This document shows, piece by piece, positions 81-64,000 of a stretch of 64,000 bases of DNA. Under the pieces are notes generated by a model. The model did not search any database. It worked only from the letters and a program-made list of their open reading frames with translations, and had not been told where the DNA came from. The translations under genes were made by a program, and so were the position numbers. Origin of the DNA: Struthio camelus (Eukaryota; Chordata; Aves; Struthioniformes; Struthionidae); NCBI RefSeq assembly GCF_040807025.1, contig NC_090952.1, positions 23,433,068 to 23,497,067 of the forward strand, in the 5' to 3' direction. How positions within the stretch are numbered: the first letter of the stretch is position 1; each line of letters starts with the position of its first letter.

Positions 81-1660
<1,580 letters not shown>

Positions 1661-27894: not shown

Positions 27895-27985
27895 CAGCAG
27901 TCATTGCCTGAGCTCTTATTACACATCAATCGTATAATTAAACATCGAGGAGGCGGATTACGATTTCGCAAGTAGCAGTTCGGGT
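27895..27985. promoter_or_regulatory. AT-rich island with homeodomain-like motifs
   Basis: A short island containing 'ttattacacatcaat' and 'tataattaaac' (TAATTA core) within GC-rich DNA. It is a candidate conserved noncoding element. Evidence is limited to motif content. Confidence 0.25.
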
Positions 27986-37790: not shown

Positions 37791-38340
37791 TTTACAAAGC
37801 AAGATCATAAAGCAGTGACATAATCCAAGCTTGGCAAACACTTTTGCTGATGTTAAGCCTGTGCCTTTCGTGGGTCTCGCTGCTGCTTTTTAGTCCGTGA
37901 TATAGATGGCGCAACCGGCCGATTAAACGTGCAGGAGCCTCCCAAGATACCGTTTCATTTGAAACGCTGACATTTATATTTGACATTCCAATAAGTGTGG
38001 GGCCTTCTTTTTTCTTTCTTCTTTTTAATTAGTTCTTGCAAGGGTGCGGGTCAGACAAAGCTACACAACAAAGTTTTCCATAGGCGAGGTATGATTCAAA
38101 CAGATGACTCCCGGCCAGCCTTCCTACCCTATCTACCTTGCAGCTGAGCCTCGAAGCCAAATTAATTACGGGCCACCCACAAATAGATGCGAGAGGGAGG
38201 TGAATCTTTTTGCCCATTCATTCCCTGCCACCTCTGTCGAGAACTCTTCCTACACGCTAAGGGCGAGTGGGAGGGCTTTGGTGCTAAAAAACGACCCATT
38301 CATTTCGTTTTGACACCAAAGTGCCGTCAGCCAGCCGGGA
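37790..38340. promoter_or_regulatory. AT-rich island, candidate conserved noncoding element
   Basis: Nonrepetitive ~550-bp segment at the right edge of the GC-rich block, with 'gccgattaaacgtgc', a palindromic 'gtttcatttgaaac', and 'ccaaattaattacgg' (TTAATTA near 38160). The motif richness and lack of decay by simple repeats suggest constraint. This is inference only. Confidence 0.35.
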
Positions 38341-40929: not shown

Positions 40930-42762
40930 TCAGCCCCCTCACGATCCTCCTGCCCCACCACAGCCCTCCTGCCCCATCACCCTCCTCCTGCCCCACCACA
41001 GCCCTCCTGCCCCCTCACGATCCTCCTGCCCCACCACAGCCCTCCCGCCCCCTCACGATCCTCCTGCCCCACCACAGCCCTCCTGCCCCCTCACAATCCT
41101 CCTGCCCCGCCACAGCCCTCCTGCCCCCTCACGATCCTACTGCCCCACCACAGCCCTACTGCCCCATCACCATCCTCCTGCCCCACCACAGCCCTCCTGC
41201 CCCCTCACGATCCTACTGCCCCACCACAGCCCTACTGCCCCATCACCATCCTCCTGCCCCACCACAGCCCTCCTGTCCCATCACCATCCTCCTGCCCCAT
41301 CACCATCCTCCTGCCCCACCACAGCCCTCCTGCCCCCTCACGATCCTCCTGCCCCACCACAGCCCTCCTGCCCCCTCACAATCCTCCTGCCCCACCACAG
41401 CCCTCCCGCCCCCTCACCCTCCTCCTGCCCCACCACAGCCCTCCTGCCCCCTCACAATCCTCCTGCCCCGCCACAGCCCTCCTGCCCCTTCACGATCCTA
41501 CTGCCCCACCACAGCCCTACTGCCCCATCACCATCCTCCTGCCCCACCACAGCCCTCCTGTCCCATCACCATCCTCCTGCCCCCTCATGATCCTCCTGCC
41601 CCATCACCATCCTCCTGCCCCACCACAGCCCTCCTGCCCCCTCACAATCCTCCTGCCCCGCCACAGCCCTCCTGCCCCCTCACGATCCTCCTGCCCCACC
41701 ACAGCCCTCCTGCCCCATCACCATCCTCCTGCCCCACCACAGCCCTCCCGCCCCCTCACCCTCCTCCTGCCCCACCACAGCCCTCCCGCCCCCTCACGAT
41801 CCTCCTGCCCCACCACAGCCCTCCTGCCCCATCACAATCCTCCTGCCCCACCACAGCCCTCCTGCCCCATCACCATCCTCCTGCCCCACCACAGCCCTCC
41901 CGCCCCCTCACCCTCCTCCTGCCCCACCACAGCCCTCCCGCCCCCTCACGATCCTCCTGCCCCACCACAGCCCTCCTGCCCCATCACCATCCTCCTGCCC
42001 CACCACAGCCCTCCTGCCCCATCACCATCCTCCTGCCCCACCACAGCCCTCCTCCGCCATCACCATCCTCCTGCCCCCTCATGATCCTCCTGCCCCATCA
42101 CCATCCTCCTGCCCCACCACAGCCCTCCTGCCCCACCACAGCCCTCCCGCCCCCTCACAATCCTCCTGCCCCACCACAGCCCTCCCGCCCCCTCACGATC
42201 CTCCTGCCCCACCACAGCCCTCCTGCCCCATCACAATCCTCCTGCCCCGCCACAGCCCTCCTGCCCCCTCATGATCCTACTGCCCCACCACAGCCCTACT
42301 GCCCCATCACGATCCTCCTGCTCCACCACAGCCCTCCTGCCCCATCACCATCCTCCTGCCCCCTCATGATCCTCCTGCCCCACCACAGCCCTCCTGCCCC
42401 CTCACGATCCTCCTGCCCCACCACAGCCCTCCTGCCCCCTCACGATCCTCCTGCCCCACCACAGCCCTCCTGCCCCATCACCATCCTCCTGCCCCGCCAC
42501 AGCCCTACTGCCCCATCACGATCCTCCTGCCCCGCCACAGCCCTCCTGCCCCCTCACGATCCTACTGCCCCACCACAGCCCTACTGCCCCATCACGATCC
42601 TCCTGCCCCACCACAGCCCTCCTGCCCCATCACCCTCCTCCTGCCCCACCACAGCCCTCCTGCCCCACCACAGCCCTCCCGCCCCCTCACGATCCTACTG
42701 CCCCACCACAGCCTTCCTGCCCCATCACGATCCTCCTGCCCCACCACAGCCCTCCTGCCCCC
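40930..42762. repeat. Large minisatellite, 19-bp unit in 38-bp higher-order repeat
   Basis: About 1.83 kb of tandem units of the type CCTCCTGCCCC + ACCACAGC or + (A/C)TCACNAT. The 19-bp half-units alternate to give a 38-bp period, about 48 copies, with point variants (CCTACTG, CCTCCCG, CCGCCAC). The + strand is C-rich and the - strand G-rich, with closely spaced runs of three to five G. Open frames of several hundred codons (Pro/Ser/His-rich) run through it on the + strand in more than one frame. They reflect the rarity of stop trinucleotides in the unit, not a gene. The array ends at the start of the CpG island. Confidence 0.97.
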
Positions 42763-44090
42763 GCCGCCGGCTGCAGCGAGCCGCGGCCGGCCCGAGCCCA
42801 GGTCTCCCGGCCCCGCGGGGACAGCGGCACCCGGCCCGGGTCCCGGCCGCAGCCCCGGCCGCTCCGCGCCGCCGGGCCGGGCCGGGCAGGGCAGGGCCGA
42901 GCTGGGCCGGGCCGGGCTGTGCCGCGCTCGGCGCCCGGCGGCCGCCCCGCCCCGCCCCGCCCCGCCCGGCCGGGCGGCGCCTGCCCGCCGCCCCCGCTCC
43001 CAGCAGCCCTTGCAGCCGCCTACAATGAAATTTGCGAAGTTTTTTCGGTTTCGGCGCCATTTTCGAGTGGACTCGGAGGTGAGGAGGGAGGGCGGGCAGG
43101 GCGGCGGGGCCGGGGCGCCGCGGGGGGCCGCCCTCCTTCCCCCCCCCACCCCCGGCGCCCACCGCCCCCGCAGGCGGGCCTCGGTGCGGGGCGGCGGCGC
43201 GGCCCGACCGGACCGGACCGGACCGCGGCGGCGGCAGCGGCGGGGCGGGGGCGGCCCCTCGGCGGGGGCCGGAGCGCGCTGCCCGCCCGGGCGCTGGCGG
43301 CGGTGGCGGGGAGTGGGGGGCAGGCCCGGCCCCCCCCCCGCCCTCCTTGCCCACGCCGAGGAGGGCGGAGCAGCAGGGAGCGGGAAAAAAAAAAAACGAG
43401 GAGTGGCAAAATTACAAAAAAAAAAAAAAAAACCCAAAAAGGAGGTGGGGGGGGCTGCAAAAAGGAAAACTTTTTTAGGCGGGGGGGGGGGCGGCAAGCG
43501 CGGTAATAAACAACCGCTGCCCCGTGCGGCCCCCCCCCTCCCCCGCCCGCCCTCGCGCGGCGGGAGCCGCCCCCGCGGCACAAAGGCCGCCCCGGGCCGG
43601 GGTGGGGGGACGGCGGAGGAACGGGGGGGTGGGGGGGGTGCCGGTGCCCGCGGCCGCGGTGCCGCCGCGCGGGGCAGCGGCTGCTGCGCGGCGCCGTGAC
43701 GCAGCTGGGAAGTGACAGCGGGGGGCGGGGCGGGGGCCCCCCGCGGCCGGACCGTTAGGGCGGGAGCGGCGCGAGGCCTCCGCGCGCGCGGCCGCCGCCT
43801 GCGCCGCCGCCCGGCCCGGCCCGGCCCCCACGTGCGCGGGCCGCGCAGCCCCGCGCGCCCTGACAGGCGGCGGCTCCCGCCGCCTTTTTTACTTTTTCTC
43901 CGCTCTTTTTTTTTTGTTGTTTTTTTTTCCTTTTTTTTTCGTATTTTGAGTTTGAGGGGGTTTTTTTCCCCCCCCCGCGGAAAGCGGCTCGCCCTCCCCC
44001 GCGGCCGCGCACCCCGGCGCCCCGCTTGGCGCGGCCGTTCCTGCCGTCCGCAGGTGCGTTTCGCTGTTGTTGTTGTTGTGGTGGTGTTGG
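42763..44090 (+). promoter_or_regulatory. CpG island, candidate promoter of the miR-15c/16c host transcript
   Basis: A ~1.3-kb, extremely CpG-dense segment with GGGCGG/CCGCCC (Sp1-type) boxes. Near 43049-43063 sits an E2F-like TTTCGGCGCC overlapping a YY1-type GCCATTTT, a combination typical of TATA-less vertebrate promoters. A good splice donor (CTCGGAG|GTGAGG) follows at 43079, so a short noncoding first exon is plausible. Nothing protein-coding is nearby. The nearest + strand transcription unit downstream is the miR-15c/16c pair 6.5 kb away, so I infer it drives their primary transcript. It could also be bidirectional. Confidence 0.6.
43049..43063 (+). promoter_or_regulatory. E2F-like / YY1-like composite site
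   Basis: TTTCGGCGCC at 43049-43058 overlaps GCCATTTT at 43056-43063 (YY1 core AAAATGGC on the - strand). Both motif types cluster near vertebrate CpG-island start sites. Factor binding is inferred, not shown. Confidence 0.4.
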
Positions 44091-47000
44091 GTTCCCCCCC
44101 CCCCCACCCTTTCGTTCGGGTCTTATTTATTTACTTATTTTTAAACCAGAACTTTTTAATGAACGTTTTCTGCCGGCCCCGAGCGGTTTGCGCGGCCGGC
44201 CCGCGCGCCCCGCTGGCAGGCGGCACGGGCCGTGGCGCGGGTGTAATACCCTCTCACGCGGGATTTTGCTATATCAAAATATATTTTAAATAAGTATAAA
44301 CGCAGAACAATTTGGCGAGCTAATTTAAAGTAATTAAAAAAAAATCGGCGCCCGATTTTTTTTTTTCCCCCTTCGCTCGTTACTTGCTTTGTACAGGAAA
44401 TTTGAATATCCTGGCAAACGCCAGCTTCCAAGCGACGCTTTCCTTCGGTGAATTAGTCCCGGTTGCTGATCCGCTGTGATGAGAGCGACATGCGGGGGGG
44501 TTTCTTTTTTCTTTCTTTTTTTCTTCTTCTTTTTAATTTGTTCCAAATCCATCATTTTTAGCAGAAGTACCTCAGGTACATAAACGCAATTTTTTTCGTT
44601 TAAGAAAATCAGCTTTCTAAAACATTAAATGTTTGGGGGGGGTTGCCCTCTTCTGTTCTGCGGGTACGTAGGTAGGTGAGCGAACATCTGCCGAGTTTCA
44701 TCATCTGCTCTGAAGAAATGAAAAGAAGTTACCATCGACTGTGAAAGTCTGTATTTAGTTAATCCACTTTGGTGGGAAATACAGTAAAACTGAACTGCTA
44801 ATGCAATAAACGTTTATGAAATACAAGAGGGAAGCTTTAGGTTAATGCTTCAGGCGAACTGACCCAAATATATATATATATTTTTTTTTAAATAGCGTGT
44901 GCTTGTTATGTTTTGAATTAATGTTCATCTGACCAAACAAATTTGTTTTTTTCTGTTCTTAACAAATAAACTTTATAGGATTTGGGCTTCCGGATCTGTC
45001 CCTTGTTGTTTAAAACTGGATGAGACGACAATGCAAAAAATGGAAGTAACAAGGAGCATCATACTTTTCTTCTGTTCGGCAGTGTTGAGAAAAAACTGTG
45101 GATCCTGGAATTTTACTGTGGATTTTACTGGTTTTCTGGAGTACTGTAAGTCGAAGTCTTATCTTGCAGGCCTTTGCAAGCAGAAGTAGCTCGGTCTCAT
45201 GTTAATAGACCCATCTTGATAAATACAATCAAACTAGTAAGGATGTTTAAATCAAAATTGAGTAAAATTAATGAATAATTTTGTACGTTATTTGAATTCG
45301 CCCTTTGTAGTAGCAGTTTGGTTTCGGGTGTCCTGTGCCATGTAAAGGCATGTTAAAGTTATGTGATTCAACATGCAGAAGATACACTGTGCTTAAAATT
45401 TAAATGTAACTCTAATGTGCTTTTATTTGTCTAAAATGCATACTACTCCTCTAATCTTCTTCTAAATAGGTTAGTGAGGAAAGAATATTTTAAATGAAGT
45501 GTATGAGAAATTATCCACTCTCGCACAACTCTGACATACGAGCGTATGTTAAATTATATTTTATGGATTTATTTTCTGCCACCTGGGAAGAAGTCTTAAC
45601 TGCATAAATGTGTGTAACAGCGATTTTTGTGTGACATCTGCGCACGGAGGAGATGCGCTGTAGGTGCTTGTGCAAACGAAAGTAACTTTGCTGTGTGCAG
45701 TTCCCACATCTGACTGTTAGTGCTGTTTAGTAGTCATTTCTCTGGACACCGCCTTAGCTCAACTTCGACAGACTTGTAGGTCGAGTCGTATCGGAAATGT
45801 AATAGCTGGAAACATTTGGTGGTTGTCGATCAAACATCGGGTCTGATTTGAGCTATTAGCCACATCTGTAAATATTAATACGTGACTTTTGTTTAAATTT
45901 TGTTGTTCAAACGAAGGCAGAAATGAAAGTGGTGTGATTTCCCCCCCCCCCCCCGACCCAATGAAATACAAAGTATTTCAGTGGGTGCTACTCACCCCTT
46001 TGCTTTTGTTTTGTTGCTATAATTTTAAGTGTCTCACTAATGTCTGGGACTTTCGACTGTAATGAGATAATTTATTTTAGTCTTTTTGTAAAGTAAATGC
46101 CACTTTTATTTTTTATTATTCTTTCAAATGAGAGCAATGACTTCAGGATTTGTTTGTACATTTCTCTTAAACGTTTTGATAGCAGTTTTTTTTCCTGTGC
46201 CTAAATATATAGGAAATGCTTAATACTTATTTGTCTTTGAGCTTACCTAGCACTGAAGTGGAGAGTGTGCAAGTCAGTGAAGGCTGTGTATGCAAATTTG
46301 TCTTGTCATGGGCTCGTATATTTATTTCCTTTCCTTTCCCATGGTGCTCTTTCTCACTTTTTTTCTTTTTTTTTTCCTGGTTATAGTGACAGTAAAGAGG
46401 GACTAAGTTGCATTTTAAGGGAACCCTCTATTTCGGGGTGAATTTGTCTGTTGAGGGGCATAGTTTTCTTCTTAATTGCCCAATATACTTTGGCAAGCAG
46501 AAGTTGCATTGTTCTGTGCAATGGATTTTTGCACGTTCAAATTCCCCAGTTACTTAGAAGATTTAATTGAACCTCGGTAGGTGTCTGGCTTGTGTATGTG
46601 ACAGGTAGAAGTCTTAATTTCTAGAAAAAAATTGTGTGTAAACAGCAAGCATGGAGCCCTCATTGCTCATGGCAGAGGAGGAAATACGCACGTCACTCAC
46701 CTGTGGCGCTCGCTTCTCGTCCGTAAGGTGGGAGCGAGGGGCACGTTTGGGAAGCTCAGGTTTTATGGAATATATTGACACCTTTGCACTCGAGTAGAGC
46801 TCTTGAGGCTGCCCAGAGCATGAGCGGGGTGTAGTTCCCGGGCAGTGGGTGCTGCCAGAGATGCCCCTCAAAAATCACTACCCTAAATACTCTGAATTTT
46901 ACTCATTTGTCTGGGGGGCGGTTTATCTTCCAAAGCAACACGAGTAATGTATTTCCTTTCCCTCTGGGCCATTGATCTGCTGGATCAACAGGTCCCTCTT

Positions 47001-49538
47001 GCTGTTTGAACTCCTTTGGGGAAGGAGGGTGCGGGGGGGGGGGGGGGGTTGCTGCTCGTCGAGCTGTTGTGCAGTGGCTCTTTCTGCACGTTGTGCTTGG
47101 GACCCCACTCGCCTGCGGAGCTGCTGCTGCTTTCGGTGCTGCTTCTGCACGGGGTCCGGTCAGTGCTGTGTCAACTCCCCAGTGCCGCAGACCACGGGGG
47201 CTCCCAGTGCCGTTTGTAAGGAACGTGCTGCTGGCAGTCAGCTCGCTCTGGGGGTGCCACTGGGCCTGGCTAAAGTAGCTGGGAGAACAGGGAGAGGGAC
47301 GCAACTGCTGCGTAAGTACTTTGTGGTCCGGCCTATCTGTGGGGTGAAAGTCTGTTTTTGTTTTTATATTTATTTGTTTGTTTATTTATTTTCTCCCCAC
47401 CCCATCCTGTTCAGAAAGGTTTGTGCCCCTCAGAGCCTTGTGTGTTATCTTTGTTCTTTGCGTGCAGCCAGGCCTGGGGAGAAGACGCTCTGTGGCTGTG
47501 CTGCAGCACAGGTCACCCCTCTGCAGCACGGTGCCTGTTGGAGCGCTTCGTAAACTCTTCTTTGTGTTGTCTTCTAGTTCCTGTTGAAACAGAGATTGCC
47601 CTGTGTCAAGCAAGAATCATGTGCAGGAGGAGCTGATGTTTCTTTGCGCTCAGTCAAAGGTGAGTTGGGAAGGTAAGTTTGTGTGCCTGACTCGCTTTGA
47701 ACTGCTTGTAGCATCTCTGTCCCCCGTGCTCTGGTAAATGCAAAGCCCTCTGAAGTGCTTGTCCTCTTTGGGCACTGCAGTTGACACCTAGAGGAGGCAG
47801 AGATAAAACTCTCGGATCATTCTTTTTGGTTAACATCTTTCTGATTTAATACTGAGAATCCAAAACACAAACTAAATTTTAAAAATCCTGAAAGAGACTA
47901 AAGTGTGAAATGGGATGGTTCAAACATGTAGCGATATTGCTTAAAATGATTACGCTGTCATAGCATAAATTCACATATTTTCTCAGATCTGTATTTTAGG
48001 GCCTGTTTTGAATTACCCTTTGCCCAGTACTCAGGGTGAATGTTGGTTTTCTTTCTGTGCCGGAAAAAAGGTTAGTGGATGTGTATTGAACCCTCACTTT
48101 GGAAAGTCACACTTGTTTAGGAGAGAGCTCTTGCCCCCCATGTCGAACGAGACTAAAGACTGATTATATATAAACACTCATTAAAACATGAACCTCAAAG
48201 ACAATCAGAATGGATTCTAGAACTAAGCTTGTTTGCTTTTTTTTTCTTTTAAGTCACTTGAAAAGATGAAAGAAATAAGACTACACAGGTACAGTCAAAA
48301 CATTGTCACAGAAACAAAATGGGTAAAATTATTTGGGGACTTGTTTTGGCTTATACAGGTTTAACTTCCTCTTTGTACTTATTTGTTTCTTTGCAGTGAG
48401 TAGCAATTGCTCTCTAGAGAGCTGGAGCTAGTGCTATCAGTATTGAGGACACTAAAGTGGAGAAAAAATAGTGCTTTTTTGTTGGCAAATATTTAATTTA
48501 AAAAATTGCAATAATTTGGCACGGGTCATAAGAGCTTTTGAAATTCCTATTTTTCAGTTTGCTAAAAAGGCAGGGACTAGGAGGTGGACATACTGCAACT
48601 GAGATAACCAGTGTGTTCAGAGACAGCACAAGCATTTGAACTAATAGCACCATTTCTGACATTGTTCAGTTTTTTTGTGATGCTGCTTTTTAAGAAAATG
48701 AATTGAAGGAAGTTGTCACATAATGGGGGGGGGGGGGTCAAAAGGAAACACAAAAATGTCAGGCTATCTGCTTCTGTACTGGTACTCACATGCTGACGTG
48801 TAACCACCTCTAGTGGCTCTGCACTTGAAAGTTACGGCTTTGTTTGTGCTCTTTTCTGCCCTGCACAGTCATTTTCTTCTCCTCTGGTATGGGCAAGGGA
48901 GGCAGTGAAGTACCAGGGTATTTTCTATTTCTGGAAACTTGAGTTTTGTCATTCAAATAGGCAACGAGCATGATCTAGTCTTTAAAACAAAAGTTTGGGG
49001 GTTTGATTTTTTCGGATTTTTTTTAAGATGTCTCAAAAGTCAAAATCATCCAAATGAAAAATAATTTTAGGAAAGCATAAAACAGTTTTGCACTGTAGGA
49101 ATTTGGACTTAAATACTAACAGGGCTGCTACTGGAAAATCCCTGGTGTTGAGCAGCCCCGAAGAGGGAAGTACAAGGCAGCGTTTCCCAGGAGACTATTT
49201 GGAAGGGCCAGAAAGGTCTGTGGGATCTTTACAGTAGATCAGCACATCTGCTAGATCTGAAAGTGTAGGTTTGCCATATATTTTGGGGCTTGGAAGAATG
49301 GTTTGTTTCTGATTTTGTTTCTGAAACTGGTTCCTTTACTCTGTGTAACTGCTTGTTCTTTTATAGTTACAGACTTTCCAATAGCACCCATGAAGAAAAA
49401 ATGTCCAGTGGTGGTAATGCATGCACGTTACATGTCTTCATTGTAGAGTGTTCTTCAGTACCTTATATCACGGTTTTAAAAAACAAAAAACAAAACAAAA
49501 AAAACAAAATACCATTTGGAATGTCAACATTCAGTGGG
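44091..49538 (+). other. Putative 5' body of the miR-15c/16c primary transcript
   Basis: AT-rich DNA between the 43-kb CpG island and the microRNAs, with no coding frame of note. Simple sequence includes C- or G-tracts at 44094-44105, 45941-45954, 47033-47048 and 48725-48737, T/A repeats near 47356-47392, and A-rich (CAAAA) repeats at about 49479-49508. That it is transcribed is inferred from position and strand. Exon boundaries cannot be fixed from sequence alone. Confidence 0.35.
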
Positions 49539-49620
49539 CTTTGAGGAGATGTAGCAGCACATCATGGTTTGTAGGGACAAGGAGATACAGACCATTCTGG
49601 GCTGCCTCATTACCTCAAGG
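49539..49620 (+). ncRNA. MIR15C: microRNA precursor mir-15c
   Basis: The 5' arm carries the miR-15 mature sequence at 49552-49573, starting TAGCAGCACATCATGG with seed AGCAGCA. The 3' arm (about 49587-49609, accattctgggctgcct) pairs with it across a ~13-nt loop, and the basal stem CTTTGAGG/CCTCAAGG closes the hairpin. From knowledge of the family, this is the miR-15c of chicken, and miR-15/16 microRNAs repress cyclins, CDKs and other G1/S regulators and BCL2. It sits 0.5 kb upstream of mir-16c on the same strand, between PABIR2 and HPRT1, where mammals carry miR-424(322). Confidence 0.95.
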
Positions 49621-50037
49621 ATAAGACAAGAAAGTGAGCTTCTGGTTATCATAGATGTGGAAGCTAACACATTCCCATGTATGTCTTTAGTTCAGTTGAA
49701 CAGGTACGTGTAGATAAGTTTTCTCGGTGCTTATATCTGTGCACTTTCTTTGCAACTGCAAATATATACTGTATGAGTTTGTGCTTGTGTGTGTCTGAAC
49801 CGGGCTGGGCCTGCAGGCAGGAAGGACTTTCAGCTCCTTTTTGTTGTTTTCCAACACGGGCATGGCTTGGTCTTGGCTGGAGCACAGTGCCTTCAGCTGG
49901 CTTGTTACCCCTCACATATTGTTTGAGGTAACGCTCCTGCTGTCCGTCGTTTCCCCGGCAGAGGGTTTGCCAGGTACTGTGTTACCCTGTGTGCAGGGGG
50001 GTCTGGAGGCCGTGGAGAGGCGCTAGGATGGAAAGCT

Positions 50038-50122
50038 GTCAGCAGTGCTCTAGCAGCACGTAAATACTGGAGTTTGGGATTGCCTGTTGCTCTCCAGTAT
50101 TGCATTGCTGCTTTAGTGAGGC
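50038..50122 (+). ncRNA. MIR16C: microRNA precursor mir-16c
   Basis: The mature 5p strand at 50051-50072 begins TAGCAGCACGTAAATACTGG, identical to the core of miR-16. The 3' arm, beginning CTCCAGTATTGCATTGCTGC at 50092, pairs almost perfectly with it across a ~19-nt loop. It shares the AGCAGCA seed with mir-15c, so both target the same cell-cycle mRNAs (family knowledge). The pair is presumably processed from one primary transcript. Its position corresponds to mammalian miR-503, although its mature sequence keeps the ancestral miR-16 form. Confidence 0.96.
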
Positions 50123-50256
50123 TGGAAATCAGTCCCTGCCGTAGAAGCCAGGGCTGCGGCTCGGGGGGCGCCTGGGGGCCGCACACCTTGCTCGGCGCAG
50201 GGCCCAGGACCTTGCCTGCTGCTGGTCGGGCCCCGGGGCTCCCTTCTCCCTGCACA

Positions 50257-50262
50257 AATAAA
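50257..50262 (+). terminator. Candidate poly(A) signal after mir-16c
   Basis: An AATAAA on the + strand about 135 nt beyond the mir-16c hairpin. It is the first candidate end for the primary microRNA transcript. Confidence 0.25.
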
Positions 50263-50367
50263 CCACTGCGGAGGCAGCAAGCAACGAGGGCTCGGTGTCG
50301 TTCATGGGGATGGGATTTGGGGGGGGGGCTGCACCCTGGCGCTGCCAGGCTGGGGGCACTGCTGTGG

Positions 50368-50453
50368 GCCTGAGTCCTGAGTGAGGGGTGCAGGGCAATG
50401 GGGGGCTGGTGCCTGAGTCTTGAGTGAGGGGTGCAGGGCAATGGGGGGCTGGT
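50368..50453. repeat. 43-bp tandem duplication
   Basis: Two adjacent copies, 50368-50410 and 50411-50453, of a unit beginning GCCTGAGTCCTGAGTG differ at one position. A partial third copy seems to start at 50454. This is a small minisatellite 250 bp downstream of mir-16c. Confidence 0.85.
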
Positions 50454-51005
50454 GCCTGCCTGGGGGGTGAGGGCTCATTGCCTGCCTGTGGCAGCTGGGG
50501 GCAGACACGAGCGCTGGTGGCAGCCTTGTGGTCAGAGCCTGCATGGGGTGGGAGGGATGGGGCCCCCCTGCCCTGTGCTGCCAGGGGTGCTGGGAGCTGC
50601 CCTGGCTGCAGGACCCTCACCCCACAGCCTGGGTGGCCCCTGCTCCTTGGGGGTTGATGTTGGGGTGGAGGGCAGCGAGGGGGGCTGGAGCTGCCAAGTG
50701 ACTTATCCCAGAGAGGTGGGGAGGGGTGAGGAGTGCCGTTCCTGAGAAAGGTGACACTGGCACTATGGGGGCTTTTCCCAGCTCTCTCCTCTGGGTTTCA
50801 GGGGTGGGAGCCCCAACCTGAGCAGAGGGTGTAGTGGGGAGGGGGCTCAGCTCCTGCCTGGGCACGGGTGCTCTGAGGCTGGAGCAAAGCCACCTGTGCG
50901 GTGGGGAGCGGTGTGCTGCGCACAGCACGATGCTGCCGTCGCCTGCTCAGTGCGGGGGGGCTGTCTGTCCTTGGATGCCTTTTTTTCCAACTATTTTTAG
51001 GAATT

Positions 51006-51011
51006 AATAAA
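51006..51011 (+). terminator. Candidate poly(A) signal, distal to mir-16c
   Basis: AATAAA on the + strand with a G-rich stretch about 20 nt downstream. It is a second candidate end for the microRNA primary transcript. Confidence 0.25.
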
Positions 51012-51749
51012 GATCGAGAGTTACAGGCTGAGGGGGGAGGAATGTCCTCTTGCAGACTGACAGCTTAAATCACCGCTGCTGGTTTGCGAGGTGAGCGCTG
51101 GTACCGCCAAGAGATCGATGTAAACGGCCTGCGGTGCGTAAATACTGCTTAGAGCACCCTGCAGGGGCAAAAAGAGCGTGCACGGTTAGGACTAGCTTTT
51201 AAAAAGCTTGACCTAGTCACCGGGACAATGCGTGCCTACAAACCGTTTTAAGTCACAATATTTGGACACCCAATTAACCTATTTCAAATGCTTTCGCTTG
51301 TATCTGTAGAATGGTACGTTCCCGCTGCCTACAAGTCAAGCCCTTAATCGCCATTAAAAAAATACTGCTTTCCCACAGGAATAATGAACAGTGACTTAAT
51401 GAAGATCGACTTGTTTTACAGCGAAATTGGTCAGGAAAGCGATTAATTCCATATTTCTATACTTCTTTAAATTTACATTCGATTTTTTTAATGTGACCAG
51501 GTAAGTTTTACGTTGGTAGCATTTATATATGGCGTGTAAGAGCTAAAAAAAACAAAAAAACAAAAAAAAATCAACTTTATAGCGTTTTCTTTTTGTTGTT
51601 GTTGTTTTTTAAAGACCTCTCTGTTGCGATCAGCTTGATTCTATTCAGCTGCAAAAAGAGATTTCCACCTCATTTGCAGTTAGAAGACTCCTGCTCACGC
51701 TGTGCTTTCGCCCACTGCAGGCTCTAGCCTCCAGCCAGGATGAAAACGC

Positions 51750-53190
51750 GCTGACGGCAACAGGAGGGTAAAACCGCCCGCGGGCGAGCAGAGAATTTGA
51801 GGGCTAAAGCGAGCCCGGGTGGCGGGGGGACGGCCCCGCGGTAGGTAGGGGGCCGCCCGCGCCGCGGGTGCGCGGGAGCCAGCGCGGCCCCGCGCCGCTC
51901 CGAGCGGGGCGCGGTGTTGCCCGTCCAAAACGGCAGGAGGGCGGCGGGGGGGGGGGGTGGCGAGCCGGCCGAGAAGCCGGCGGACCCTCCCGCCAGCGCG
52001 CACCTCGAGGCTGTTCGCAGCTCGGCTTCCAGGCTGGGCTCTTCCCTGCTCGCGCTTGCGGCGCGCACCGCCTAAAATAACGCGCAGCGAAAGCCCCCGG
52101 GAGAAGAGCACGGGGCTGCTGGCAGCCGCCCCGCGCGGGCGGCCGCGGGGAAGCGCCGCTCAGGGGCGCGCAGGGCTGGCGAGGGGGCGGCCCGCGCGGG
52201 CTGCTCCGGGCGCTGCGCGACAAACCTGCCGCCGCGGGCAGGCGAGGGCTGCGGCCGCCGCGGGCCGGGGGCCGTCGAGGTCCCGCCGGCGTTTTGGTGC
52301 CCTTTCCTGGAGAAGCCGAAAGGAACGGGCTCACCGTTCCTGGCGGTGAGTACCTACGCGCATCGCCCTACGTCTCTGCGTAGCTGCTGGGTTTAAAAGG
52401 CGAAAGGTAGGCAAAGTTATTAACCACGCGCCGTTACACCAATTCCCCCCCACACTCTTTTTTTTTTTCAATTTCCCCCAGACCGAAACCCTCCCACACA
52501 CTGACAGTAAGGGTATGTTACTGCACTCTCAGTACCAGGTACCTCCGTTAGAGAGCGAGCGCTGTGGGAGCCAAATGAGGTGTCCTGGATTCCTGTAAGC
52601 ACTAGACGAAGCAACCCCCAAAGCCACCTTATCCACCTGCAGCCTTCTCCTGCTCACCTCCTTTGATGCACGAGGAATTTTGGCGGTGGTTAGCAGCTCG
52701 GGGGGTGGGAGCCAGCGCTATCTTGCTTTCCCTGCGCTTCTTGCCCACCCAGCGCATCTGCTTTTCCTCGTCTCGCGTGCAGCGTGCGCTGAGCCAGGAC
52801 GGGGTTTGTACGTGTCTGTGCAGCGCCTTGCACGAGGGGAACTCCCCGCGCTAGCTGCTAATAACTTCACGTCTGGCTCCTCGCACTGCCAGGCGGGCAA
52901 CGCTTTCCATGCCTCTCTCACCGAGGAGAGTCGTTCGGGCTGAGTAATGCCACCCTAAGCGTGCGCCCGGGAGCGTGTGGCTTCGGCAGAAAGCATCCAG
53001 CGTCCGTTGAGGCGAAGCTGCAAGAAGGACGACGTTGCCTTCGGTCAAATGAACGGCGTGGAAGGTGGCCCGGCACCTGGCAAAGCGGGCTCCGGCCCCG
53101 CCGTCGGACGGGACGGGCGGGCGGGCGGGCGCGGAGCGGAGCGGAGCGGAGCGCGGCGGCGGGTCGGGCGCCCTCATGACTCAGTGGGTC
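51750..53190. promoter_or_regulatory. Second CpG island
   Basis: Very CpG-dense at about 51760-52350 and again at 52960-53175. It has (GGGC)n at about 53115-53130, (GCGGA) pentamers at 53131-53153, and an AP-1-type TGACTCA at 53177-53183. No first exon of a known gene is recognised on either strand. It may be an enhancer, an antisense or lncRNA promoter, or an alternative element for the microRNA locus. Confidence 0.4.
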
Positions 53191-56100
53191 TTGGCAACAA
53201 ACGCCGAATGCGAGAGAGAGAAATACAGTTTCTGAAGCAAAGTATAACGAACTGCTGGCAGGGATTTCTCACCTACATAAAACCATCCTTGTGTTCTGCT
53301 CAAACAACAGACGAGGGAAGACTGCTCAGAGAGCGCGTGTTCGTTTATAAACTGCCCAAGGATGCGCTCTCATGCCGTGCCCGCTGCAAGAGAGAGCAGC
53401 CTCCTCCCCGGAGTGAAACACTTCGACTGAAGTCAGTGTGCATAACCGGCGGGAAAGACCCGACGGAGAGGAGGAGACGGGGTATTACGGAAGGTGCAGC
53501 TAGAATAAGTTTGTGTATGTGATTTTTTTTGTGTTTGTGTGTGTGTTTTCTTATTCTTTACTAGGAAGCCCCAAATGGTTTTCTAATTACAAGCCTAAGG
53601 AGTTTACACTGCAAAGCACACGGCTGCAGGGCATCTAGTTTTCTTCTCGGCTCCCTATCGGGTACTTTGCATTTTGTGAATGGGAGGGAGAAAAATTGAC
53701 AAAAGGAATTTAAGGAGAAAAGAGCGAACACGCTGTAATGCGCACTTAAAAGCCTCTGTGAAGGGGGCCGGGGGAGGGGGAGGGAGCCAAGGCAGCACCT
53801 AGCGCTCAGCGAAAGCCCTGGGCTGCGGGGGGGGCGGCGAGGCTGCCCGGGGCCGGCGAGCGGAGCGCTCCCGCGGCTGCTCCGGCCATCGCCGGGTGGC
53901 ACCTCGGGTACGGACCGGCCGCCCAGCTGCCAGTTACCTTCCTCCGACGGGTATGGCGAGAGCTGGAGGTTGACGGTTCCCTATCGATTCCCATGCAAAA
54001 ATCATTAGCTGTTTGGTTGTTTTCCTGGCCACGTTTGTGACAGGGGAAGAAAAAAATCGCCAGCTGCACGAGCGCACAGACCACCGGCGAAAACAAACAA
54101 CAAAAAACCCCCCTATTCTAACGCCCCCAGTTGCAGTCAGCATATACATCGATCCGCTCCGGGCAGCGGCGAGGCAGGCAGAAGACGCCAGAGGCTTATC
54201 TTCCTGCTTGCAGTGAGGGGAAAAAATAAGTCAGCGCTGGTTAGTCACATGTTAGAGAAATACTAGCCCCGGCAACCGGCTCATTTGCCTACATCTCGAT
54301 TTACTCATCACAACGGCGTAGCTCGCCTAGCAGCGCACTGATTTATCACGGTCGGAGATGCTTCAATTCACCAGTAGTGTTTTAAGTGTAGAAGAGCCTG
54401 GAAGAAAACGTGTTTACACAAGTAGCATCAATATCATCCAAATGTGTCATCCTCCCCCGCCCCTGCACCGCTGTCACCAGCCTCGTATCCCCTGGCCGTT
54501 CAGAGAGTGGAGGTTTTCTCAGCTTTCCTGGGATAACAAGCCTCACCGCCAATTCGTTCGATGTCTTGCTGACTCTTCATGTGGATGCTGCTGCAGTTCA
54601 GCTCGACCCTCTTCACCTTCGGGTCCGCAACAACTGTAACCCTGCTGCAGTTAGGATGCTGTTTCCCCATCAAAAGACTTACCCAACACTATGAATTCAA
54701 TAAATGTCAAGTTCGCAAATACTACAAAAAGACAAAAATTAACCAAGCACTGTGACTTCTCATTTGCTAATAAAAGTAGTTATATACAGTCGAGATCTGA
54801 TCTTGCAATGTGCAACCTTGAATGGGAATTAAAGGCAGTCAGACACGGCAGAAACAGTCCTTTAATGAAGCATGTGTAATGAGCTTCCTGGAAGTAGCGT
54901 TAAGATTTTCACTGCTGGTTTAATGCACGTGTAACAGGCTTTTCAGAGCATAATATACAGTGATGCAAAAGCAATGTCAGGCTAACATGTCAAGGTACAA
55001 AAGTCAAGATATACAATTACAAGGCAACTTAAAGGTCCTCATTTAGCTAAACTGTCAAAAAAAACCAGAAAGATTTCTCTTTAATGATAAAACAAACAAA
55101 CAAACAAAAAACCCCTAAAAACCACCCATAAAAGTCAACTGCCAGCCCAGGTTGTATAAAGACTTTTTAATTAAGTCTTCAAGCTCTGCCTAGAATGCTT
55201 TAGCTTCTGATCAGCGTGAACTTAAAGCAAGACGAATAAATAGTCCAAACCAGAGCTACACGTTTGTGGTACCAGCTCAGTTAGTGTAAATGGCCTGTGG
55301 CAGGCTAGAATTATAAAAATGTACAGAAATTCCAGGTGTCATAGGGTGAGCGAATATATTAACGCCTATAACTACCCAAAAATCATTTTTTCAGCACACA
55401 TTTGTGATTCATAAAATGTGGAACTATAATGAATTTCAAATGCCACATAAGTGCTCAAATATAAGGTTTTCCTTTGTGCTTTCATAATATTTTAACAATA
55501 TATGGCTGGGTTGCATAAAGTTTGCATTTAACTTAAGAAGGTGTAATAATAACTCAGGCTTTTAACCAAGATTACTGAACTGAAAATGAAGAGTCTATTT
55601 TCAACTTTTTTCTCGTGAGAAGCTAGCTTAATTTAGTCCACGGGCAGGGTCTGCAAAAGTAAGCTGCAATACGTTAGCACTGTTCTAGTAAGGGTAAATT
55701 GTTACATTTTTTTTCTTTATGAACAAAGTTAGTGCAAAGAAAATAACATGAAATCTTCTGAATGGGGAACCACTTTGGGGTGATAAACTTCACCTGAAAA
55801 ATGCCTATGTATGTGCACTAAGTACCAAAAAAAAAAAAAAAGCCCATTCCCCAGTATTTCAGATGTGGGAATACTCAGTAAGATTTTTTTAAATGTTTCC
55901 TTCAAACTTATCAAACTTTTCTATGAAACACAACTGATTCTGCTAGAGCGCAGCCTCCGCTCCTGCAGCATCGCTCTTGCGGGCAGCGTCACTCAACTCA
56001 GGAGCTCGCGATGTGCCCCGCGCCCAGCCTCTTCGCTCACTGCACTCCCTGCGATTCCATACAGCTCCTTTCCACAAAAGGCCAACGACTTCCCTGCTTG

Positions 56101-57239
56101 CGGTAGGTTTTGGAAGATAACTCCATCATTACGAAGATCTCGCCTCTCCTCCCTTCCCCCCAACCACAGCATTTGAATTTTTGACTAAGACAGATAGGAA
56201 AACATTTCAGGACAAACTGCTTCACAGGTTTAGTCTAAAAGATACTGAACAGATCAATTCTCACCGTTTTCATGCGTTAGGTAGGTATTTTTATGCCACC
56301 TCTGACAGAATCTCTACGCACCACAGATTTCTTTTAAAAACACTTTTGCGCAGTAGGAACTATTAAGGGCAGGGAAACAGTGCTTCTGGAGATCACATCT
56401 TAAGTTCAACCAGACCTAATGAAAGTATGAATGGATGTAATAATTCTGAAGTTCATTTAAGTTTTTCTACGTTGCTTTTGTTCTTTGTTGGAGGTGTACC
56501 ATACATATTCCAAAACAAAGTCCCAGGGCCAGTACATGTTCTTGAGAAAGCATACACACACACACCATTTAGGACACAGAGAAATAAATTCAGTCTTTGT
56601 AGTGCATTTAAAGCAGCTCCTTGGAACATTAATTGTAGAATATTAACTATGGTTTAATTATGACCAAATAGATCTTCTGCTGATTGTGGTTATCTAATAT
56701 AAATTGTGTTGTGTAAACTGTTTTTATTTTAGGTCTGCCACTAATGACTACAGTAGCAATTGAACATACTGTAGACGGACAACGATGCGCAGCAACTGAA
56801 AATCAGAAATATGACTACACTTTGAAACCAGAAGCACAATTCAAAGTAGGCTGGCAGAAACTTAATTATGTATTAAGCCTCAAACAGCATCAAATCCTAG
56901 CGCGTAACAGAAGAATCCAGGCGCAGAAGTACACAAACCGGGCAAGCTAAGGGACTGAAAACCACGGCTGAAGGGCAAGGTGTGGGACCAGCTGCCCCGT
57001 TCAGAATTAAACTCAAGGCGAACAGAGATGTTCATGAAACAAAAGCAAATGATTACTTACAAAATGGGTGGGTGGGGGTGTGTGTGATTTCCCCCACGTG
57101 TACACATTTAGTTAACGTATTATCTTCACTCTTAATTTTTGCCAACACAGAACAAACAACAGCGCTTACATAGCATTTTCTCTGAAATAGGGTTCGGTTA
57201 TCGAACGTTAAGTATTTTGGCATTTTTTCCCCTCAGCAC
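53191..57239. other. AT-rich intergenic DNA, no gene seen
   Basis: Mostly AT-rich except a GC-rich patch at about 53760-53940. It contains a (CAAA)n run near 55088-55108 and an A-run near 55828-55842. Short frames on either strand match nothing I recognise. A longer HPRT1 3' UTR isoform could reach into its right end. Confidence 0.6.
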
Positions 57240-57245
57240 TTTATT
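57240..57245 (-). terminator. Candidate poly(A) signal, HPRT1 (distal)
   Basis: TTTATT on the + strand gives AATAAA on the - strand, followed by a G-rich stretch (gtgctgagggg) in the transcript sense. It lies about 1 kb after the HPRT1 stop. Confidence 0.45.
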
Positions 57246-58225
57246 GTCTCTCCCATAGATAGCATAATGTTAACCAAAAGGCCTATGGAGATAAAAGCGG
57301 AGAGTCTGCCTTCACTGATAGAAACATTTACAAAAAAATATTAGTGAGAACAAAATTCAAAGAGGACTTTAATATATGGAATGATTGGCATAGATGTATG
57401 GGGCTTATTTTAAAGAGACAGCCTTTATTTAAAGTACTTTGTTTTGTAGATCTTATAAAGTAAACATTACAATACTTTTTCACAAATATATTAAAATTGT
57501 TTAGATTTAAAAGGCAATTCCACTGGCTGATGAATATTTTTAAAGAAAAAAAAATCTAACAGAAACGGGCAGCTCAACTAAAACTAGATTTTTAAACATT
57601 CTGTTTTGTCATTCCATCTCCTTATAGCTCAAAAAGTGACATTTTTCACCCAGACTTCTTTTACAGCAATAAGGCAACTCCAGGAGATTTGGATGAGCTC
57701 CTCAGAGATTACAGATACTGTAACTGGCTGCTCTTCATGCTATATAACACCCAAAGGTGCAACTATTCAATAGTCACAACCACACTTGTGCATTAAAATA
57801 TAAAACTTAAATTACAGATTTTAAAAATATTACTAATAGACTTCCCTATCATAAAATGTTTTACATTTACAGTACTTGAACTATTTCAGTTCTGGGTTGA
57901 TGAGGTTTAAGCAATTTACCACTGCAAGAGTTAGACTCTGGAGCTCACAAACAGCACAACCCAACCAGGGGCAGCAATAGTCGGTAGAGTCATAGTGCAA
58001 ATCAAAATAAGGAGTGCAGAATTGCACTAGTTGTTTACATTTCTAAAATATAAATGAACAAGACAAGATTCTTATATTGTACATGCAATAAGTTATAGTA
58101 AGTATATGACAATGGGGCTGGGGCATTCTACAATTTTAGCTGGTGTACCAGAGTTGAAGCCTGTGAAAGATAGGACTCAGTAAACAAAACAATTCAAAGC
58201 TCTGTTGTCACAGCACTTGAAGCTT
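57246..58225 (-). other. HPRT1: HPRT1 3' untranslated region (end inferred)
   Basis: AT-rich sequence follows the HPRT1 stop codon on the - strand without splice sites or coding frames. AATAAA signals at 57424-57429 and 57240-57245 suggest 3' UTRs of roughly 0.8 and 1.0 kb. The exact end is inferred. Confidence 0.6.
57424..57429 (-). terminator. Candidate poly(A) signal, HPRT1 (proximal)
   Basis: AATAAA on the - strand about 0.8 kb downstream of the HPRT1 stop codon. Confidence 0.45.
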
Positions 58226-58273
58226 TCATGCTTTGTATTTCTGTTTCCCCGTCTCGCTGATCACACAGATATG
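58226..58273 (-). CDS. HPRT1: HPRT1 exon 9 (terminal coding part)
   Basis: On the - strand a ttttgtttcag acceptor precedes 48 coding nt reading HICVISETGKQKYKA and a TGA stop (plus-strand tca at 58226-58228). From family knowledge, this is the C-terminus of hypoxanthine-guanine phosphoribosyltransferase, whose human form ends HVCVISETGKAKYKA. The enzyme is a cytosolic homotetramer that makes IMP and GMP from hypoxanthine and guanine with PRPP. With exons 6-8 it completes residues 134-218, exactly the length expected from the 218-residue human protein. Confidence 0.98.
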   Translation of the reverse strand, partial: HICVISETGKQKYKA

Positions 58274-58942
58274 CTGAAACAAAATAAAATAAAAAGCTCC
58301 TGTTAGAAAAGTAATGTCTATGAATAAGAGAATGATATTTTACATTTATTCAGTAATGCACTTAAAAAAAAAGAAAAGAAAAGAAAAGAAAAGAAAGTGT
58401 GCTTATACATTTCAGCACTAAATATAATGATCTTGTGTTATCGTTCATGAAAAACAATTTAAGTCTTTTGTTGGTCAAAAATCTGAACGCTGCCTTCTTT
58501 CTCTTCCCTCTTAACTATCTCACCCAGTGTCTGCCACAGGCTTTGAGAGACCCAGATGAAAAAATGAATGACTTGGAATAAAAAGTGGACCCTTCTTGAA
58601 CTCGCAAGGCCTCTCTCCTCTAACCCGCATATATAATTAAGCAAATGCACTTCTTTGTTGTAGACACCTGGCAAGATGAGAAACTTTACACAAATTGTCA
58701 CATTATTTCAAACAAGTTGATAGGAGATGTGCAGCCTCTATTCTCTACGAAGCTGAAAACAGAATAAACGTTAGTTTCTTAAGAGCTCTAAAACGCTGTC
58801 CTGGTGCTCCAGGGTTTGCTCTAATCGTTGCATCGCACAATTTGCACATGAGGCATCATTTACACTGAGCAGGGAGTGTGGCTTGAAGACACTTCTCTCC
58901 CTTCCTCCTCCCTAGTTTTAAATGGACAAAAACATTACTTAC
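58274..58942 (-). other. HPRT1: HPRT1 intron 8
   Basis: GT-AG intron of 669 bp (donor GTAAGT, acceptor TTTCAG on the - strand). It contains an (AAAAG)n microsatellite at 58364-58396. Nothing else is recognised. Confidence 0.95.
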
Positions 58943-59019
58943 GTTCAAATCTCTAAAGTACTCATTGTAATCTAGGGCGTATCCCACAACAAATTTGTCT
59001 GGCACTTCAAATCCAACAA
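58943..59019 (-). CDS. HPRT1: HPRT1 exon 8
   Basis: 77 nt, the same length as human exon 8, with acceptor ctttttcag and donor AAC|GTAAGT on the - strand. It encodes (F)[20 protein letters not shown] and FRDLN. It carries the purine-binding residues known from the human enzyme: Lys185, Phe186 (stacks on the base) and Val187 in PDKFVV, and Asp193 in YALD. All are present, so the active site looks intact. Phase matches both neighbours. Confidence 0.98.
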
Positions 59020-61233
59020 CTGAAAAAGACCATAAGTCACCAGTACGTTAGAAAAAACTTCCTGAAGTTCATTAAGCCTTTTTAAGAGACACAATCTGGA
59101 ATTTTATAAAGAAATAAGTATCCTAACTCTTTTTTTTGGTTCCACTCAAGTATTCTAAGATTAATATTCAAGCTATTTTAAAAATTTAATTTACTTCCTT
59201 GATTTCATTCATTCACTAAACCAAAATTAAGTAGATTTATTCACTGGCTCCCAAGCAGCAGCACGGCGCTGGCACGCAGTCTGCGAGAAGCAAACAAAAA
59301 CATGCAATCTGCAGACAAGCCGTTCTCACCAGAATGCGAAATCCTTTTCAATTTTTCTGCAAATTGGTAAATATATAAGAGAGAGCCAATACTTCCCAAC
59401 ACTTCCTGGATCTTCGAAACGCCCGTGCACAAGCAGTGGAACTGGTGCGCACAGCACCAATCACCCTTGCAGGATCATTCAAAAGGCAGCACTTTGGGGA
59501 GTGAGGCCTAACCTCGGGTACCCTTACAGCGTGCTCTACCCAAGGGCATAACAGGAAGGCGCGGTTCAGCCATCAGTTCCTTCACCACTACAAGTACGCA
59601 AGTCCAATAGGACACCCTGCAAAGAGCTAAGGGTGAGAACGGAATAATGCGAACGTCATAAAGAACCACGGTTACTGCAGGGAAACCGCTCTCTCATCTC
59701 TGAGTCACCGTCCGAACGGACTCTGCTTTTGTGGCTCACAGGCAGGGACCAGAAATGTAAGAACGCGCTATGGCTGCGGGACAGCTCTGCTGCCTTGGAG
59801 GCTGCTCCCTCGATACAGAAAACAGCAAAGCGCAAAGGGCCCCCTGCTCTTTATGGAGTCACTTGCAGGCTACAGAAACAGGTTTTTTCCCCCCAAAGCA
59901 GCTGCCTAAAAAGGACATGGTAGCCAGTCCGCAGATCGTCTAAATGGGTATGACTCTAGCAGGACGGTTTGGGGATGGCCAGGCAATATTAGTCTAATCT
60001 GTCCACAAACACTATAAAACAACCTACGGAAATTTCCAAACGGCCATTTCCAAACGGCCATTTCCAAACGGCCTCAAGCTAAAAATCAATGACTCCCGAC
60101 CACATAAAAGCCAGGATGTTTTTCCTCTCCTTGAGTACAATGAGGCTCAGGAAAGAAAAGAGGCAGACAAATCACATAGTTCAGATGAAAGGCTGTGTCC
60201 TCTCTTGGAAAAATTAAGGTGATGTTTAGAAGCTACTTTGCTGTCCTGCGCTAGGGGGTAAAAGAGAGGCCCAGCCACATATGCCTCATTGTCTCCTGCT
60301 TTTGGAGATCACGTGTTCTGTCCTAAACAGGTTGCCGCTGCGGGCAGACGGCAAAACAAACCATCTGCTTTGAAGGGCTCAAAAGGCAGACCCGTTAACC
60401 CTGCTAAGCCTATAATACGATCTCAAGAAAAAGGGGCATCCTTAATTGAGCGGAGCACCTCAAATTAAGCTTTTCAGGCATCTAGAAATTTAAGTTTAAG
60501 AATATTGTACAACCTCAGAAAGGGGAGGAAGAGGATGTGATTCTGTTGCTAAATTCACTCCGCTTCCTCACTGAAAGCGCACACTCTAGGTTAACAGGAA
60601 TTCAGGTCTCTGAGAAAGGCACAAATCACAGAGCTCTGGCCAAGCCACGACCGGCTGTCGCTCTGCTACAACTGCCTGCTCTGCGTGCTATCCCCTTCTT
60701 TGAAGTCTTGGGACAGAAAGGAGAAGACAAGAAGGGAGTAATTCAGATACTTAAAAACAACTGTTTCAGTGCCATTTTAGATACCCTTTCACTATAAAAC
60801 CTGTGTCAGACCTGCTACCCCTTCTGTCCATCTTAGACACCTGGGGGCATCCAAATGACATTAGGCAGCTATGTTCAGGAACCTGAATCACTCCCAAAAG
60901 TGTCAAACGTGAATTCAGCAAATTCTGCTTACCAAAGCATTTGACTACATGCACGTTGGGAAAATTTCCACCAGAAAAGGGATTAACCTGGACCAAAATA
61001 TCAAAGTTTCCTTTTCATATAGTAAAATATGTTACAAAAAAAAAGGGGGGGGTGGGGGAGAGACCAAACCCATATTAATTCTGTCAAAATATATTCCAAA
61101 TATTTAAATTCCCTAAATAAGGGCAAAAACAATCAAGAATCATTGGTGAAAACTTATTTGGAACATTCCTGGACTTTGACCAAACGCTAACACACGTTTA
61201 ACATTTAATGATGGTTGTCGAAAAGTCACTTAC
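59020..61233 (-). other. HPRT1: HPRT1 intron 7
   Basis: GT-AG intron of about 2.2 kb. It holds a perfect triplication of a 14-bp unit at 60032-60073 (listed separately) and a G-tract near 61045. No other feature is recognised. Confidence 0.95.
60032..60073. repeat. Perfect 3x14-bp tandem repeat
   Basis: The unit ATTTCCAAACGGCC occurs three times without mismatch at 60032-60045, 60046-60059 and 60060-60073, inside HPRT1 intron 7. Perfect identity suggests a recent expansion. Confidence 0.95.
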
Positions 61234-61280
61234 AGTCTGGTCGATATCCCACACTTCGAGGAGTTCTTTTAACCAATAAA
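61234..61280 (-). CDS. HPRT1: HPRT1 exon 7
   Basis: 47 nt, identical in length to human exon 7, between a tatttgacag acceptor and an ACT|GTAAGT donor on the - strand. With split codons it reads (S)LLVKRTPRSVGYRPD(F). It includes the Lys165 position (LLVKRTP) that contacts the purine 6-oxo group in the human enzyme. The frame is open and the phase is consistent with exons 6 and 8. Confidence 0.98.
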
Positions 61281-63247
61281 CTGTCAAATAAAAACAATAT
61301 AAAACTGAAATATGTAAAAGCAGCAGGACAAAGATGTAAGACTGTTTTAAAGACAGACAGGCTGAATACGGCCTTCAGTGAGACGGAAGGCATACAACTG
61401 AAAGCATAATTATGTACATCTTAGACATACTATTTTATTTCCAGGCCCAGCTGGTCATAATGACAGAATCAAGACTTCTTTAAAACACAGCGTTTACAGC
61501 CTAAGAATAACTAACAGGTCTGTGAGAAAGAGCCTAAGAGATACTGCTCTCGATGGACTTCCATCGTGAGAAGTGACTTAATGAGGTTCTATGTGCGTTT
61601 AGAAACTTCAGGTACAATCACTTTAGTTTACAGGTGACAACTTGGGTTCTGGCCAGGCCAACAAAGTTCTTTTCATGAGCATGAGTATTATGAAACAGAA
61701 GTTCAGCTGGTCAAAGCATCCTCAGCTGTACTTATGCAACATGTCCTCAACCGTTTTTCCACCGGCAGTACTAATTACCCCCCCCATAAATAAAACGTAA
61801 TCTGTTCTGGGGATGAAGTGACACAAGCATTACACCAGCTCCGCTCTCCCAGAATTAACTGTCGGAGAAGCAGAAAATATGGAAGTGCAGAGTTGGGGGT
61901 TCTGTAGTACGGAGAAATGCCTTGCCAGTTTGACTTAACTCTCTCATTCAATCGAGCATTTCTACCTTTTATAAGAGGTCCCCAGGTGCCTGACATTTGC
62001 CTTTCTTTAGGGACAGGGAGACTTTGGGAGGAAAAGAAAAGGTGGCTGACGGCTGACTGTAAGGACAGCTTGAGCTGATCCGCATTCTCAGATACCCATC
62101 TGTTTCAGGGAAGAAGTCTCCACTGTTTAATCAGTGGGAGGTCACTTGTCAGGTTTACAGTTTCAGTTTTAGACATTCAGAAACTTCTATCAGAAGGACT
62201 TAATTTTTGAGTACCTGTGTAGGCTTTGATATAACATACCACAAATCATATTAGCATTAATTGGCATCACCCGGCTACAACTGCATCACTTATCAGAGAG
62301 AAAGAAAATTAAGAAAAAAAACAAAAGAGTGAGGCAAGTGAAGTAACTAAGGACATCTTTATACTTCAGACCGTCTACAATGATCACATTTACTTGCTCA
62401 GGTCTTTGACAGACCGAAATTACTGCAACAGATTTAAAAAAATAGGAAACTGGACTTTGCTCCTACTGTATTATACTCAGGAGGTACACTGCAATGATAG
62501 GGCACTTTTCAATGACAAACATTTAAAATTTGGCAACATTTATCAGGCCAGGGAGAAATCCTAAACGATTTCACCTTCAATAGGTCACCACCAGATTATC
62601 AGCAAGAAGAGCTGTTCTAGTACCTCTAACAACTGTTTTGGGATTGTTATGGCAACACAACTGATTAGATATTATACCTCGCTCTGGTTTATCTCTAATC
62701 CCCAGCAATCATTACGCTTTTATTGTAAAATACACAACCACAGCAGAGCAGTGTGAAAGATGCAACTTAAAAAGAAGTAGGAGGAATGTTGATATTGGTT
62801 AATAATATAAAATTGTCTACATTTCTTGTTAGACGTAAGTTTTTTTAATTAAAAAATGTTCTGAAACTATTTGATTAAAAAATGTAACTAACTAGAAGAG
62901 CCTGGAAGACCATATGGCTGGTGACTCTCACAGTGTGACCTCTAAAGCCCAGCTACACTACGTACACTATGCAAACAGTAACGTCGGAGTACAAGTTAGT
63001 TTAATTCTATGATTAAATCCAGCAAGGCAGATCAAGAAAGATCTCCATTGCACAGGTACACGGCTTCGGTAGACAGAAGCGACAAATAAACACATTCAGA
63101 GAGATACTACATGTACCTAAAAGACAACCACTGATATTTTTCTTACCCCAGTTGCTAGGAAGAACGTTTATATTTATGAACTAATTCGGGGAAATTTGAA
63201 AAAGCCTCCACTAACTTAAAGTTGTTTATTTTTAAGCCCAAAAAGAA

Positions 63248-63280
<33 letters not shown>

Positions 63281-63619: not shown

Positions 63620-63702
63620 CTGGCTACTTTCACCATCTTTGGATTGTACTGCTTAAGTAGAGACAGCAATGTTTTCATTGTTTTACCAGTATCAATTATA
63701 TC
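63620..63702 (-). CDS. HPRT1: HPRT1 exon 6
   Basis: 83 nt, the same as human exon 6, with acceptor attttcag and donor CCAG|GTAAAC on the - strand. It starts in phase 0 and encodes [20 protein letters not shown] followed by PKMVKVA(S). DIIDTGKT is most of the PRPP-binding motif of type I phosphoribosyltransferases and includes the catalytic-base Asp (human Asp137) and the loop binding the 5-phosphate. The preceding Glu is encoded by exon 5, outside the window. Differences from human are conservative (Q to K, VR to LK). This is the most 5' HPRT1 exon present here. Confidence 0.98.
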
Positions 63703-64000
63703 CTGAAAATAAAAATCTCACGTAAGAAAGGATATTAAACCTGTCAGAGTAGCATTTTCAGGTTCTTACCAAACAATCTTTCAACTTTGATAGCAGGAAA
63801 AAATGCTAAAATACTGTTCATAATCAAAGACAAGTGAGATATAAAAGACCATTTTGTGCTGATGTGTCTGTGCCCAGCAAAGTGATCAAACACTTTAACA
63901 ACAGTTTAATTGCTGTGGGTAACAACTGTTTTTGAAAACAGTTACTGAACTATGGCCTTCTCAGCTCCTTGTGGAGATTTTATGGCTTGTGCTGGTGGCA
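63703..64000 (-). other. HPRT1: HPRT1 intron 5 (partial)
   Basis: Intronic sequence upstream of exon 6 on the - strand. I looked for the 18-nt exon 5 (encoding NVLIVE in human) and did not find it, so it lies beyond the right edge. Confidence 0.85.

Follow-up and report, generated by a model that had tools for sequence, protein, structure and literature searches.

The mammalian miR-424(322)/miR-503 pair belongs to the H19X (MIR503HG) locus at Xq26.3, which one review places between PLAC1 and HPRT (PMC6394552). The same 2018 review terms the pair mammal-specific, and it places miR-424(322) nearest to miR-15c from opossum, platypus, chicken, and frog, and miR-503 nearest to miR-16c from chicken, platypus, and frog (PMC6394552). 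The age of MIR503HG is given as at least 370 Myr in another paper, which cites Necsulea et al. (PMC4833476). In chicken, a study of lung and trachea lists gga-mir-15c and gga-mir-16c with read counts on chr4 near 4.05 Mb, and lists other miR-15/16 loci on chr1 (15a and 16-1) and chr9 (16-2) (PMC2777939). Both miRNAs have been counted in chicken skeletal muscle (PMC3107184). According to a comparison of 7-week muscle with 14-day embryos, miR-16c was lower in the muscle, and miR-15c was lower in the dwarf line only (PMC3428657). The link of miR-15c/16c to miR-424/503 is thus already published. Here, we describe the corresponding region of Struthio camelus in a window of 64 kb, meaning the whole stretch of DNA that was analysed. 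The locus is almost certainly miR-15c/miR-16c, the older tetrapod form of the mammalian miR-424(322)/miR-503 locus.

The window contains two hairpins on the + strand, pre-miR-15c at 49539..49620 and pre-miR-16c at 50038..50126. Their guide-like 5p arms lie at 49552..49573 (TAGCAGCACATCATGGTTTGTA) and 50051..50072 (TAGCAGCACGTAAATACTGGAG), so that the mature starts are spaced by 499 nt. Each string occurs exactly once within the 64 kb, and the reverse complements of both are absent from it. We take the two arms to be equal to the mature forms of gga-miR-15c and gga-miR-16c, and the mature ends are likewise adopted from the chicken forms. Fold energies were compared with 200 dinucleotide shuffles per hairpin. 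The region 49539-49625 folds at -38.4 kcal/mol, its shuffles averaging -18.95 (z -6.25), and the region 50030-50130 at -38.6 kcal/mol, its shuffles averaging -29.12 (z -3.19); for neither hairpin did any of the 200 shuffles fold as well. The opposite strands also fold well (z -5.49, 0/200 shuffles as good, for the first hairpin; z -3.11, 1/200, for the second), as strong hairpins do on the reverse strand. The Rfam mir-15 model separates the strands, scoring 35.9 and 42.8 bits on the reverse strands against 55.6 and 63.1 bits on the + strand.

In both 5p arms the seed AGCAGCA begins at position 2 (49553 and 50052, respectively) when the mature ends are taken from the chicken forms. Both arms thereby carry AGCAGC near the mature 5' end, the mark of the miR-15/107 group, and both loci combine a stable hairpin with a mature sequence in one arm, as microRNA genes do. 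The 7-mer itself is found at 39 places in the window (16 on the + strand and 23 on the - strand). Because the seed word is so common on both strands, we rejected its count as evidence and rely on the hairpins together with the family match.

The second hairpin matches Rfam mir-15 (RF00455) with 63.1 bits (E 5.4e-14 over 64 kb), exceeding the gathering score of 57.3. The first hairpin reaches 55.6 bits, 1.7 bits under that score (E 3.8e-12 over 18 kb), and for this reason it is missing from the gathering-threshold listing and surfaced only in the E-value search. At the gathering threshold, the whole window yields three matches, namely the second hairpin and two copies of snoU109. To these results the earlier note's description of two well-folded + strand hairpins about 0.5 kb apart, with miR-15- and miR-16-type arms and a common AGCAGCA seed, corresponds in full, and the RNA folding check that it had proposed came out in its favor for both regions.

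Subfamily models were searched against the 661 bases around the pair, with + strand matches considered, and by E-value against 18 kb (46000-64000). In the 661-base search, the first hairpin matched mir-15, mir-15_2 (53.8 bits), and mir-322 (40.1 bits), and the second matched mir-15 and mir-503 (22.3 bits). Apart from the second hairpin's mir-15 match, all of these lie below their own gathering scores, which are 62 for mir-322 and 54 for mir-503. The mir-503 match is marginal, with E 0.031 over 661 bases and 0.86 over 18 kb. In the 661 bases, no match was obtained between the second hairpin and mir-322 at E up to 10, or between the first hairpin and mir-503. The 15-type hairpin thus corresponds to mir-322/424 and the 16-type hairpin to mir-503, a pattern that may simply restate the contrast between 15-type and 16-type sequences. 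Scores below the gathering level rule out the family names mir-322 and mir-503 for these hairpins, not common descent. Other matches in the 661-base search, among them mir-1179, mir-6132 (second hairpin, 15.3 bits), and mir-497 (first hairpin, 15 bits), had E values of 0.39 to 8.1 and were taken as chance, as were two sub-threshold matches elsewhere, MIR6024 at 51538-51621 and MAT2A_A at 57223-57297, both on the - strand.

The flanking genes were located by tblastn with human FAM122B and HPRT1 queries. On the + strand, PABIR2/FAM122B is represented by its penultimate coding exon (~109..205, E 3.1e-14, with ends set by eye from splice signals) and by its last coding exon with the stop (~1510..1660, E 2.6e-12, 85% over 47 aa, with the splice site and stop read from the sequence). 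On the - strand, four HPRT1 coding exons with approximate ends were found: the last (58229..58276, E 2.8e-5, containing the motif CVISETG), the penultimate (58943..59017, E 1.2e-11), and two others at 61235..61282 (93.8% over 16 aa, E 3.9e-5) and 63622..63705 (85.7% over 28 aa, E 5.6e-11). The exon near 59 kb also matches HPRT chains of 31 distinct PDB sequences at E up to 0.001, microbial ones among them (best E 3.9e-12), and the best-scoring chains are presumably human-type HPRT entries. The two genes are convergent and separated by about 56 kb. The hairpins are positioned in the last fifth of this gap, on the PABIR2 strand and 8 kb short of the 3' end of the HPRT1 coding part. The earlier note had likewise placed them in the PABIR2-HPRT1 interval. 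The last PABIR2 intron contains two near-identical tandem copies of the H/ACA snoRNA snoU109 on the + strand (1020-1163 and 1267-1415, 119.7 and 111.5 bits), which represent a local duplication offset by about 247 bp.

In the human locus, the miRNAs lie on the FAM122B strand with miR-424 preceding miR-503. The pair described here likewise occupies the PABIR2/FAM122B-HPRT1 interval on the PABIR2 strand, with the 15-type hairpin first, so that strand relative to the flanking genes and order are the same, as expected of an orthologue. It also resembles miR-424(322)/miR-503 in adjoining HPRT1 on the PABIR2/FAM122B side and in its AGCAGC core, as described in the review (PMC6394552). With chicken gga-mir-15c/gga-mir-16c it shares the tandem pairing and presumably identical mature 5p strings, and it differs in spacing, with 499 nt between mature starts here. 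The chicken loci are about 370 nt apart in the coordinates published for them (PMC2777939).

Comparison with other species relied on published statements and on known human and chicken sequences. Against human precursors, the local scores of the first hairpin are 72 for 15a, 52 for 15b, 36 for 424, and 35 for 497; those of the second are 83 for 16-1, 66 for 16-2, 52 for 195, and 39 for 503. The pair shares family and seed with miR-15a/16-1 and miR-15b/16-2 and is nearest to them by sequence; the mature sequences of mammalian miR-424(322)/miR-503 have diverged. These scores, in which 195 also outscores 503, count in favor of an origin as a duplicate of miR-15a/16-1 or miR-15b/16-2, inserted here in one lineage and similar to miR-424/503 without being orthologous. 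We regard such an origin as very improbable, because the interval and the strand are the same as those of mammalian H19X, the designations 15c and 16c are used in frog, chicken, and platypus alike, and one published tree groups them with 424 and 503 (PMC6394552). Moreover, chicken 15c and 16c are both listed on chr4 within a few hundred bases of each other; the listed 15a and 16-1 loci are on chr1 and 16-2 is on chr9 (PMC2777939). A closer match to 15a/16-1 would also be expected if the mammalian copies had diverged, and it is compatible with a pair that changed slowly here and rapidly in mammals.

Even less credence is given to the idea that one or both hairpins are decayed, unprocessed copies, a reading that could draw on the first hairpin's score of 55.6 bits, slightly under 57.3, and that we consider close to negligible. 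Both hairpins have long stems, and both 5p arms equal what we take to be the chicken mature forms. In chicken, one column of a muscle table reports 6058 reads of gga-miR-16c and 1038 of gga-miR-15c (PMC3107184).

Orthology with miR-424/503 is carried by position, strand, and order, since human 15a and 16-1 outscore 424 and 503; a proof from sequence only was rejected for the same reason. On this footing, the earlier note's argument from same place, strand, and seed to orthology is supported by the H19X position and by the published grouping of 15c with 424 and of 16c with 503 (PMC6394552). Its phrase "sauropsid counterpart of mammalian miR-424/503" holds for the relation, and fails for the implied division between sauropsids and mammals, as the names used in the review assign 15c and 16c to platypus and 15c to opossum (PMC6394552).

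We then consider the parts of the mammalian locus that differ here. Rfam holds models of both miR-542 and miR-450. Neither model matched in 46000-64000 (E up to 1) or in 1-46500 (E up to 0.5), and neither matched at the gathering score anywhere in the window. The interval contains 17 ATG-initiated ORFs of at least 150 aa, of which 10 were scanned against Pfam; the other seven lie in a 21-bp array (four), in a 38-bp array (two), and in the CpG island near 43 kb (one). None of these 10 of 17 ORFs gave a PLAC1-like match at E up to 0.1; nine had no Pfam match at that level, and the remaining one matched gastrin below threshold (E 0.092). PLAC1 is coded in a single exon, and the ORF scan would accordingly speak against an intact single-exon PLAC1, not against remnants. 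Unlike the mammalian locus, the window thus yields no Rfam match to miR-542 or miR-450 and no PLAC1-like match in the scanned ORFs, which agrees with their being mammalian additions, as seen in one genome only.

Several tandem repeats and CpG-rich stretches were observed in the interval, in which no protein gene was recognised. The 21-bp array is located at 31283-31706. The 38-bp minisatellite at 40946-42761 (about 48 copies, 90% matches) reaches the first bin of the 42.5-44.5 kb CpG island and yields a 711-aa ORF that is probably spurious. GC-rich stretches with high CpG o/e extend over 23001-31500 and 32501-38000, with the exception of the bin 34501-35000.

One non-coding primary transcript on the + strand would carry both pre-miRNAs. 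A candidate promoter is the CpG island at 42501..44500 (four 500-bp bins, CpG o/e 0.77-1.34), near which the transcript might start. It might end shortly past 50.26 kb, at a candidate AATAAA hexamer (50257..50262, +) located 131 nt after the 16c hairpin. Both ends are tentative, because other CpG-rich stretches lie nearby and AATAAA or ATTAAA occurs at eight other places in the 8.6 kb scanned. Scans for splice and poly(A) strings returned several candidates and do not fix the exons of the host transcript. As is general for the family, Drosha and Dicer would cut both hairpins from the primary transcript, and the 5p arms would be loaded into Argonaute and repress mRNAs whose sites pair with the AGCAGCA seed, cell-cycle genes being the main targets. 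A 43-bp tandem repeat (50368-50473, about 2.1-2.5 copies) follows directly past the candidate transcript end. A further CpG-rich stretch at 51501-54500 (o/e 0.75-1.10), 1.4 kb past the miR-16c hairpin, may be a promoter of its own, located between the miRNA pair and HPRT1.

The 56-kb interval could conceivably represent the pre-therian state, in which a non-coding transcript started at a CpG island carries only miR-15c/16c beside HPRT1, as an unexpanded H19X; we put this forward as a speculative reading, somewhat doubtful on present evidence. With similar reserve, the HPRT1 neighbourhood in that state might be the place that holds Rsx in marsupials and PLAC1, miR-542, and miR-450 in eutherians. 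Marsupial Rsx is stated to have its counterpart in a segment that lies downstream of HPRT1 (PMC3820666), and elsewhere it is described as the gene downstream of H19X (PMC6394552). Given this location of Rsx, the interval is an outgroup of some interest. By itself the locus teaches nothing new. With it, one further genome shows the miR-424/503 locus in the form of an old miR-15/16 pair, with place and seed kept and the mammalian sequence changed, and the locus can serve as an outgroup for H19X and for the Rsx neighbourhood.
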